This document shows, one piece after another, positions 6,833 to 10,134 of a stretch of 64,000 bases of DNA. How positions within the stretch are numbered: position 1 is the first letter of the stretch; every line of letters starts with the position of its first letter. Source of the stretch: Alloascoidea africana (Eukaryota > Ascomycota > Alloascoideomycetes > Alloascoideales > Alloascoideaceae); the NCBI GenBank assembly GCA_030581615.1, contig JAKTTT010000011.1, positions 1-64,000 on the forward strand, read 5' to 3'. Made by a program: the position numbers and the translations under genes. Under the pieces are notes generated by a model, which made no database searches, was not told the DNA's origin, and worked only from the letters and a program-made list of their open reading frames with translations.

Positions 6833-8451
6833 TTAGAAGTTTCCTTCATCATCAATAGGACCATCTTCTATAATTTGTTCCTCGCCTTGGTTGTAGCTCT
6901 GGTCATACTCATCCAACTCGTCATCCACAGCTGCATTCTGATATTGTTGATACTCGCTAACGAGATCCTGCAGATTGCTCTCTGCCTCTGAAAATTCCAT
7001 CTCGTCCATACCTTCAGATGTGTAAGAGTGTAAGAAAGCCTTGCGTCTAAACATTAGTGAAAATTGATGGCCAACACGTGAAAACAGTTCTTGGATAGAG
7101 GTTGTGTTTGCGATGAAGGTTGCAGACATGTTCAAGCCTTGTGGTGGGACATTGCACACAGTGGTTTGAATGTTGTTGGGAATCCACTCGACAAAATAAG
7201 GCGAATATTTGTTCCTTGCGTTGTACACTGCATCTTCAACCTCTTTTGTAGACACCTTACCTCTGAAGCTGGTTGAAATTGTCAAATAACGCCCGTTAAA
7301 TGGGTTTGCTGCAGCCATAACATTCTGAGGACTAAACAATTGAGCGGTGAGCTCCGGAACAGTAAGAGATTGGAATGATTTAGCCTTGGCCTCGAAAAGA
7401 GGTGCAAATCCGACGGAGAAGAAGTGAAGTCTAGGGAATGGTACTAGATTCACGGCCATCTTCCTTAGATCTCCATTTAACTGACCGGGGAACCTTAAAG
7501 AGGTTGTGACACCAGACATAACAAGCGAGATCAAATGATTGAGGTCTGAAAAGCTTGGTTGTGCAATCTTTAGGGTATTGATGCAAATGTGGTTTAGGGC
7601 TTCGTTATCGAGGCAGAAGGTTGCATCCACATTTTCAACAAGTTGGTGTAATGAGAGAACTGTATTGTACGGTTCTGTAATTGTATCAGAAACAGAGGAT
7701 GGGAGCACAGAGTATGTTGAAAGCATACGATCAGGATACTCCTCCTTGATTCTAGTCAGCAAAAGGGTGCCAAGGCCAGATCCCGTACCACCTCCTAAAC
7801 TATGTGACAGCTGGAAGCCTTGTAAAGAGTCTGCCTGTTCTGCCTCCCTACGGATAATGTCCATGACATTTTCCATAAGCTCGGCGCCTTCTGTGTAGAA
7901 TCCTTTTGCCCATGAGTTTCCGGCCCCAGCTTCTCCCGAAACCAGATTGTCAGGTCTGAAAAGGCCAGAAAGACGACCACTACGAACCTCGTCGATAGTG
8001 GCCGGTTCTAAGTCCACAGCAATTGCACGGGGCACGTATTTCTTGTTTGATGCTTCGTTGAAAAAAACATCTAATCGAGAGTTCACATCAAAAGGAACAT
8101 TATCAGCGACCTGTCCATCGGGGTTGACGTAATGCTCTTTTGTAATTGTTTCCCAAAAAGCTGTAGCAACTTGATTACTTTAGTACAAGAACATAAAAGA
8201 GGTTTGTACCCCCCCTCAAGTCACAATCGAAAAAAGGGGGTTTAGTGGTGATATGGTTAGCATATTATTATTCAACAAGTTGGGGGGAGGAACACGCGGA
8301 ATGATTTGGTAAAACCACAATACCACCATAAACATACCCTATCCGGGAAAGAAAACAACAAAATTAGTAAGTTTAAACAGTAAGTAGGACGCAATAGGGG
8401 CGTTTGATACTAACCAGCCTGGCCACACTGAACGGACACGATCTCGCGCAT
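6833..8451 (-). CDS. TUB2: Beta-tubulin, two introns flanking a 1-nt exon
   Basis: Beta-tubulin, the GTP-binding partner of alpha-tubulin in microtubules. The main exon (8177-6833) carries the tubulin signature GGGTGSG, the VPFPRLHFF block and an acidic C-terminal tail. The first exon (8451-8415) encodes [13 protein letters not shown] up to one base of Gly13. To restore the invariant GNQ followed by AFWETI, intron 1 (8414-8339, donor GTTAGT, branch TACTAAT, acceptor ATAG), a single G at 8338, and intron 2 (8337-8178, donor GTATGT, branch TGCTAAC, acceptor AAAG) must be combined. The product is 460 residues. Sequence is rather divergent for this family (NQVAT instead of NQIGA) but all core motifs are present. 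It shares a roughly 280 bp promoter region with GPA2. Confidence 0.93.
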
Positions 8452-8733: not shown

Positions 8734-10134
8734 ATGGGGTCCTGTTTTTCTTCTCACTCTTCAGACCATGGTCCAGGGTCAATTGATGGCCATACAAGGG
8801 CTAGAACTTCGCGGAGACGCAATAGTTCCAACTCTAGGACTAATATTACGGGTGCTAGTTCGACCGTGGTTAACGACCGTTCCAGTAGTAGCAAACTACA
8901 CAACACAACGGCCCATGAGGATGCCAGCCTACCAAATAAGGAGCATACCGGGGATACTGGTACCATAAGATCGTCGATTCAAAATGGAACTGCTGTTGCT
9001 TCCAAGGAAACTAGGGGTGAGGGGAATGGGAACGATACTGATACAATAAATGGTAACACCATGAACGGGATTGATGGCAGCTCCCATATCGATAATAGAC
9101 ACGAAACAAAGGCACCAGCAAACGGGAGCAGTAAACCAAAGACAGATATCAAGATTCTATTATTAGGATCGGGGGAAAGTGGCAAGTCAACAATCATAAA
9201 ACAGATGAAAATAATCCATCAAAACGGCTTTTCGCAGAGTGAACTAATGATGTACAAACCAATAATTTACAAGAATCTAATATCTTGTGCAAAGTCAATA
9301 GTACAGGCGCTCAGAATGTTTGATATCGATCTAGAATCAAATCCAAATGAACTGAGCAAAGAAACACTAGACGAAATTGGTAATGCATTTGCACCTGAGA
9401 ACAAAGAAGAACCTAGCAGCGTCATTTTTGATAAAGGCTTGGCCCAAAATATTACCTGTCTGTGGAAAGACCCCGCGGTTAAAGGTCTACTCGATACCCA
9501 TAGGTCAGATTTCTATCTCATGGATTCCGCGACCTATTTTTTCCAGAATTTAGATCGAATTACCGATCCATCCTATATTCCGAATTCAAATGATGTTCTC
9601 CGGGCAAGGAATACCACGACGGGTATTGTGGAAACAAGCTTTGAAATGGGGAAAATAAATATCCACATGTTTGATGTTGGAGGACAAAGGAGTGAACGTC
9701 GAAAATGGATACATTGCTTTGACAATGTTACACTGATAATATTTTGTGTTGCACTAAGCGAGTACAATCAGGTCCTACTTGAGGAAAAGTCCCAGAACCG
9801 GATGGTCGAAAGTCTCATCCTATTCGAGTCTATCGTCAACAGTCGTTGGTTTATGAGAACTGGTGTCGTTTTATTTTTGAATAAGTTTGACGTATTCTCT
9901 GAAAAACTACCAAAATCGCCTCTAGAGGATTATTTCCCTGATTATACAGGTGGACAGGATGTTTATAATGCTGCAAAGTACATCCTTTGGAGGTTTACGC
10001 AGCTTAATCGGGCAAATTTAGATCTTTTTCCTCATTTGACACAAGCAACTGATACATCTAATATCAAGGTAGTCTTCAATTCAGTTCGCGAAAAGATATT
10101 AAGTAACTCTTTAAAGGACTCTGGGATTCTTTAG
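8734..10134 (+). CDS. GPA2: Heterotrimeric G-protein alpha subunit, Gpa2 type
   Basis: A 466-residue G-alpha that probably works in the glucose/nutrient cAMP-PKA pathway at the plasma membrane. MGSCFSS at the N-terminus fits N-myristoylation of Gly2 and palmitoylation of Cys4. A low-complexity Ser/Asn/Thr-rich extension (about residues 5-135) precedes the GTPase core. Motifs are GSGESGKST (145-153, P-loop), DVGGQ (314-318, switch II), NKFD (383-386) and TQATDT near the C-terminus. The last motif normally reads TCATDT, so the Cys is replaced by Gln. The long N-terminal extension and the lack of the large helical-domain insert of S. cerevisiae Gpa1 favour Gpa2 over the pheromone-pathway subunit. 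No intron. Confidence 0.88.

Follow-up and report, generated by a model that had tools for sequence, protein, structure and literature searches.

One-nucleotide exons have been reported from several kinds of genes, and the closest counterpart of the locus analyzed here is the Fusarium gene CYP621A, in which a single-G exon within the sequence AGGGT, documented by RNA reads, contributes the central position of a glycine codon (PMC12940212). The authors of that study suggest that a base close to an intron edge was lost within a conserved motif and that a cryptic G exon rescued the gene, and the paper presents itself as the second example of a protein-coding one-nucleotide exon (PMC12940212). In Arabidopsis APC11, a single-A exon was proved by cDNA together with reporter constructs (PMC4674806), while RNA-seq of the Candida parapsilosis group is reported to reveal single-base exons in the non-coding hosts of snoRNAs (PMC5033589). 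Further reports concern plant micro-exons (PMC8831610, PMC12409088) and mitochondrial cases (PMC5436844, PMC12308204). The preliminary description of the present locus had named plants as the place where one-base exons are known, a scope that is widened by the RNA evidence reported for Fusarium CYP621A (PMC12940212) and for the Candida snoRNA hosts (PMC5033589). A literature search conducted mostly on titles and abstracts found no other protein-coding one-nucleotide exon in budding yeast, and the literature on yeast tubulin paralogs and tubulin micro-exons provided nothing decisive.

The stretch of DNA analyzed here, referred to as the window, comprises 64,000 nucleotides of the Alloascoidea africana genome (contig JAKTTT010000011.1, positions 1 to 64,000) and carries on its minus strand a diverged beta-tubulin gene, with the ATG at 8451 and the stop ending at 6833. 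Judging from the sequence, we consider it probable, at roughly three chances in four, that this gene holds a true one-nucleotide exon, the G at 8338, between two spliceosomal introns. The underlying elements were all confirmed as first described, namely a 76-nt intron (8414-8339), the G at 8338 and a 160-nt intron (8337-8178), and they are given below with their signals and the predicted mRNA junctions.

8415..8451, minus strand: exon 1, with the ATG, codons 1-12 and the first base (G) of codon 13.
8339..8414, minus strand: intron 1 (76 nt, phase 1), with GTTAGT, TACTAAT (branch A at 8364, 25 nt before the end) and ATAG.
8410..8412, minus strand: TAG stop at codon 14 if intron 1 is kept, from the translation of unspliced forms.
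8338..8338, minus strand: proposed one-nucleotide exon G, the middle base of the glycine-13 codon (G-G-T).
8178..8337, minus strand: intron 2 (160 nt, phase 2), from GTATGT to AAAG.
8256..8262, minus strand: TGCTAAC, the motif of intron 2 that best matches a branch point when judged on sequence (branch A at 8257; the acceptor follows after 79 nt).
8182..8240, minus strand: a predicted pair of neighbouring hairpins (8240-8211 and 8210-8182) that separates TGCTAAC from AAAG.
8179..8185, minus strand: TACTAAA, a second branch-like motif in intron 2, 2 nt before AAAG and 19 nt before ACAG (8161).
6833..8177, minus strand: exon 3, with the last base of codon 13 (T), codons 14-460 and the stop.
Predicted junction of the mature mRNA with the one-base exon: CAGGCTGGTAATCAAGTT.
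Predicted junction without the single G: GCTGTAATC / CAGGCTGTAATC.
Predicted junction if the 8410 donor is used (extra codon, GGT-TAT-AAT): GGTTATAATCAA.

Exactly one base lies between a complete acceptor and a complete donor (ATAG-G-GTATGT, 8342-8332), and the G of exon 1, the G at 8338 and the T at 8177 together restore the codon for glycine 13. Exon 3 opens with T-AAT-CAA-GTT-GCT-ACA-GCT-TTT-TGG after AAAG, in a frame that is open to 6833, and the sole AG between the in-frame TAA (8182-8180) and the NQVAT stretch ends at 8178. The pre-mRNA would accordingly be read as two complete spliceosomal introns with the one-nucleotide exon G8338 between them. Since two spliceosomes cannot sit one base apart, we infer that the introns are spliced out one after the other, in either order. 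Removal of intron 1 first would join G8415 to G8338 and leave GCTGG/GTATGT, while removal of intron 2 first would leave ATAG/GT-AAT; both orders would yield GCT-GGT-AAT (Ala12-Gly13-Asn14), with no indel in the GTP-binding N-terminus. The AAAG acceptor would be reached from the distant TGCTAAC branch point, possibly helped by folding of the sequence in between.

As in Fusarium CYP621A, the proposed exon is a single G in the context AG-G-GT, forming the second position of a glycine codon that is divided among exons within a conserved motif, with phase 1 before it and phase 2 after it, in a fungal protein-coding gene. CYP621A, however, is a different and unrelated gene in a different lineage, and its exon is reported from 20 orthologs and is backed by 18 RNA reads (PMC12940212). 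With Arabidopsis APC11 the tubulin locus shares a protein-coding one-base exon required for the reading frame, whereas the APC11 base is an A, the gene is a plant gene, and the proof comes from cDNA and reporters (PMC4674806). The Candida parapsilosis group likewise offers one-base exons between introns in ascomycete yeasts, such as a G that separates introns 2 and 3 in the snR57-55-61 transcript, but these host transcripts are non-coding and no reading frame is at stake (PMC5033589). A resemblance also exists to [D1,2] stwintrons, in which two introns occupy practically one position and leave in consecutive reactions (PMC9024468, PMC12403724, PMC5639578). A [D1,2] stwintron was considered for the tubulin gene and discarded, given that GTATGT (8337-8332), the second donor, is whole and contiguous and is not split by intron 1; one exonic base separates the two introns, and the sole AG able to close intron 1 there ends at 8339.

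The frame open from 8176 runs for 447 codons with no internal stop or frameshift and has beta-tubulin sequence throughout, and splicing with the one-base exon would yield a beta-tubulin of 460 residues. The Tubulin GTPase domain (Pfam PF00091) matches the N-terminal part of this protein with 211.1 bits. In phmmer searches, the best solved matches were named beta chains, aligned over residues 1-441 of the 447, and the frame beginning with the asparagine at 8176 starts at residue 14 in 56 of the 60 solved beta-tubulin chains shown, and at residue 13 in the other 4. An alignment start at residue 14 leaves only codon 13 to be completed at the junction, and this codon encodes glycine in both conventional beta-tubulins of the same genome.

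A search for tubulins across the genome (23.18 Mb in 138 contigs) identified six loci, which were assigned by eye from their sequences to the alpha, beta or gamma class: the window gene, two conventional beta-tubulins, two alpha-tubulins and one gamma-tubulin. The product of the window gene shows 66.4 and 66.6% identity to the two conventional beta-tubulins, as against 93.7% between that pair. Relative to the solved chain 5w3f_B, which we take to be the S. cerevisiae beta-tubulin, its identity is 66.2%, compared with 83.4 and 82.2% for the conventional genes. Because its identity to these two closely similar genes is only about 66%, the window gene is, by sequence comparison, a diverged additional beta-tubulin and not the standard TUB2 of the genome, so that its initial designation as TUB2, a housekeeping gene, was too strong. 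A divergently oriented open frame of 466 codons (window positions 8734-10134, plus strand) lies upstream of the tubulin gene, with 282 bases between it and the ATG, and resembles a G-protein alpha subunit on the basis of motifs recognised by eye.

To define the possible gene structures, introns of the GT-AG type, with GC-AAGT also admitted, were enumerated from the ATG at 8451, with a minimum intron length of 40 nt and one or two introns per structure. The full enumeration returned 65 structures that preserve the frame, 7 of them with a single intron, and the earlier statement that the one-base exon was the only frame-preserving solution therefore does not hold. The in-frame single introns include 8410-8178, which adds a tyrosine after G13, 8414-8170, which removes GNQ, and 8414-8161, which removes GNQVAT. 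The one-nucleotide exon nevertheless emerged as the best-supported gene model: its tubulin score of 77 is the highest of the 65, followed by 66 for the extra-tyrosine form, with 56 for the GNQ-less form, and the Pfam Tubulin bits of the N-terminal parts of four spliced forms fall from 211.1 for the one-base exon to 203.4 with the tyrosine, 194.2 without GNQ and 187.0 without GNQVAT. It is also the only form that keeps the GQxGNQ stretch without an indel. In summed splice-signal score, which carries no penalty for a second intron or a tiny exon, it reaches 15.7 and ranks second, just behind a form (15.8) in which exon 1 is largely deleted.

Six of the ten translated forms end early. Retention of intron 1, either in the unspliced form or with intron 2 removed alone, gives 13 residues; retention of intron 2 alone leads to a stop after 35 residues and skipping of the single G to a stop after 43, while splicing of intron 2 to CAAG or ACAG leads to a stop after 34 or 31 residues, respectively. 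Long proteins result from the one-base-exon, 8410-8178, 8414-8170 and 8414-8161 junctions.

Splice signals were scored against a reference set of 52 introns, comprising 23 tubulin introns (20 placed by a spliced aligner and 3 gamma-tubulin introns placed by eye) and 29 introns picked by eye from 90 candidates, 21 of which were repeats of the same genes, the remainder being dropped as variable-region or spurious-looking. Hand-picking of these 29 can favour canonical signals, a choice that is avoided by a model built from the tubulin introns only; this model gave the same donor order as the 52-intron model and likewise placed AAAG below ACAG. The 52 introns were scored by models built from themselves, and leave-one-out floors were taken from the 23-tubulin model alone. 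Among the 52 reference introns, donor position +3 is always A or G and position +5 always G or A; the acceptors comprise 30 TAG, 18 CAG and 4 AAG, and the branch points, sought as motifs within 60 nt, lie 10-36 nt before the acceptor.

On this scale, the second donor (GTATGT) is strong, outscoring 46 of the 52 reference donors and 18 of the 23 tubulin donors, and the first acceptor, on the ATAG side, falls within range (16/52 and 2/23). The first donor (GTTAGT) is weak, since it outscores 1/52 reference and 0/23 tubulin donors, and T at +3 occurs in 0/52. The second acceptor (AAAG), when judged by linear branch-point distance, outscores none of the 52 and none of the 23, and it is poorly placed, with branch motifs 2 nt and, for the canonical one, 79 nt before it, as against 10-36 nt in the reference introns. 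Leave-one-out scoring of the 23 tubulin introns placed four donors below the first donor (0.5, 0.6, 0.9 and 1.2 vs 1.28) and one acceptor below AAAG (3.8 vs 3.96), so that both signals lie at the edge of the range and not outside it. The weak AAAG acceptor is the main point against the one-base-exon model, and it is common to the models that invoke an extra tyrosine or an assembly error.

Rescue of this acceptor by RNA folding is only a possibility, and in the predicted structures it does not rise above chance. Two predicted hairpins would reduce the distance from TGCTAAC to AAAG from 79 to 24 nt, and one of them would hide an earlier GAG; an equally short distance was obtained in 453 of 1000 shuffles, and an equally stable fold in 54 of 1000. 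Since so many shuffled sequences shorten the distance as much, the prediction suggests that AAAG can be reached and is not evidence of a selected structure. Intron 2 as a whole folds better than its shuffles (z -2.67, with 2 of 200 shuffles as good), and the corresponding values for the 79 nt after the branch point are z -1.41 and 19 of 200. In the whole-intron fold the TGCTAAC motif is partly paired, and the second hairpin rearranges once exon 3 joins the fold. Nothing decisive was found in the literature on 3' splice-site folding.

The alternative to which we would give the most room, while still regarding it as unlikely, is a single intron at 8410-8178 with the donor GTATCA, which would insert an extra tyrosine between Gly13 and Asn14. 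It preserves the frame with one GT-AG intron, and it was the structure chosen for this gene by the spliced aligner, which accepts GT/GC-AG introns at a flat intron cost. The aligner cannot represent a codon split by two introns and thus could not have picked the one-base exon. The GTATCA donor scores -4.78, below every reference (0/52 outscored) and tubulin (0/23) donor, and C at +5 occurs in 0/52. The additional residue would break up the GQxG[NC]Q stretch, intact in all five other tubulins of the genome, at a cost of 7.7 Pfam bits. Moreover, this structure would make TACTAAT, ATAG and GTATGT all coincidences, while depending on the same weak AAAG acceptor.

Next in rank, and equally to be viewed with doubt, are single introns from 8414 to CAAG (8170) or to ACAG (8161), yielding a tubulin without GNQ or GNQVAT as a main or minor alternative form. 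Both are in frame, and ACAG has an ordinary branch-point context, with TACTAAA at 19 nt, and outscores 14/52 reference and 2/23 tubulin acceptors; CAAG, on the other hand, scores below all reference acceptors (0/52 and 0/23). Such forms would delete residues that presumably belong to the nucleotide-binding loop and the first helix, and they score 17 to 24 Pfam bits lower. The codons that these acceptors would cut away, wholly or in part, still read NQVAT after AAAG, for which the chance of NQ[IVL] at that composition is ~1.5e-4 and the chance of a score at least as good is 2.5e-4 if the stretch is non-coding, which argues that the stretch after AAAG is coding.

An assembly or sequencing error at an exon edge, with a single 237-nt intron (8414-8178) as the real structure, comes third and seems improbable. 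A single wrong base would account for the phase mismatch, and the sequence comes from one assembly only; however, the exon edges lie outside any long homopolymer, and an intron of 237 nt would exceed 48 of the 52 reference introns in length. In the case of an error, chance would also have to supply a one-G exon flanked by an ordinary branch point and acceptor on one side and a strong donor on the other. When the two exon edges were kept and the gap was shuffled 20,000 times, AG-G-GT appeared at a usable place in 1105/20,000 and 1095/20,000 shuffles (about 5.5%), and a one-G exon with flanking signals above the floor appeared in 20/20,000 under the 52-intron model (with the floor put at the lowest acceptor side and the second-lowest donor) and in 63/20,000 under the model of 23 tubulin introns (floor: lowest leave-one-out values, which are laxer). 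A one-G exon as strong as the observed one arose once in 20,000 shuffles under the former model and twice under the latter.

Finally, a decaying pseudogene whose first introns are no longer properly spliced would fit an extra, faster-evolving beta-tubulin (66% identity, against 94% between the conventional pair) with one weak donor and one weak acceptor, but it is very unlikely, given 447 codons of beta-tubulin sequence open to the stop without a stop or frameshift, and this long stop-free frame, 66% identical to its relatives, argues for a working gene.

The tubulin genes of this genome are intron-rich, with 20 introns assigned by the spliced aligner to the two alpha and two conventional beta genes. 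In each of the latter two, introns follow codons 4, 16 and 52 and interrupt codons 21 and 35, and in the spliced alignments an intron in codon 13 is absent from both of them. Intron positions are shared between these two beta genes, and intron lengths differ. Tiny exons occur in all four, measuring 14 nt in both beta genes and 9 nt in both alpha genes, where the 9-nt exon sits between two phase-1 introns at a V-G-Q-A junction near the N-terminus:

L005:1338-1346, plus strand: alpha-tubulin 9-nt exon, TCGGCCAAG.
L006:931-939, reverse strand: alpha-tubulin 9-nt exon, TTGGCCAGG.

One alpha-tubulin intron has a GC donor (GCAAGT; L006, reverse strand, 1460-1522). Several genes are present as pairs, namely beta-tubulin (L003, L004), alpha-tubulin (L005, L006) and actin (L007, L008), while the diverged beta-tubulin and the gamma-tubulin were each found once; the doubling of beta, alpha and actin genes could stem from an ancient duplication of the genome, from a hybrid origin or from a mixed assembly. 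Geotrichum candidum is reported to be rich in introns (PMC4479816), which is a resemblance to the intron-rich tubulin genes described here and no more. Judged by titles and abstracts, no literature on the structure of the beta-tubulin genes of Geotrichum candidum was found. Two diverged beta-tubulin genes were reportedly described in G. candidum in 1991.

Genome-wide scans revealed no excess of comparable arrangements. The pattern CTAAC..YAG-N-GTATGT gave 4 matches, against 13 for the backwards pattern, and its two-base version gave 4 against 10; CTAAY..YAG-G-GTRNGT gave 8 against 21, one of the 8 being the tubulin locus. The one-base scans led to 11 distinct places, and open frames were mapped around 10 of them, including the diverged beta-tubulin; the remaining place, L062, corresponds to the 9-nt exon of alpha-tubulin. 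Besides the tubulin locus, one place, L066, where open frames flank the match, was read closely and rejected as a one-base exon, since the upstream frame stops before the match, which sits between genes. More one-base exons may occur elsewhere in the genome. Searches of two collections (viral_contigs and genome_contigs) yielded no fungal relative, and none sharing this gene structure; the former returned 0 loci, and the latter 5 loci in bacterial assemblies, 3 of which are matches of 28-34 residues. One stretch, L056:30-621, is 48% identical to query residues 202-414 and lies on a contig binned as an uncultured Mollicutes bacterium, where it is perhaps a eukaryotic contaminant.

If the one-nucleotide exon of the diverged beta-tubulin is real, it would join a very small group of protein-coding one-nucleotide exons in nuclear genes, of which the literature searched yielded two others, those of Arabidopsis APC11 and Fusarium CYP621A, and it would reproduce in a different gene the AGGGT arrangement at a glycine codon that Fusarium shows. 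A single-G exon of the AG-G-GT type in a split glycine codon might even be a recurrent way out when intron edges within an invariant motif lose their phase, reached independently by CYP621A and by this tubulin, although we hold this generalization only tentatively and think it rather doubtful. A bolder idea is that, by choosing among the acceptors at 8178, 8170 and 8161, the cell might make either a complete tubulin or forms that lack the nucleotide-binding segment. Automatic annotation at this locus would probably lose the first exon or insert a wrong residue. A true exon of one base here would illustrate how small exons can become in an organism with short introns.
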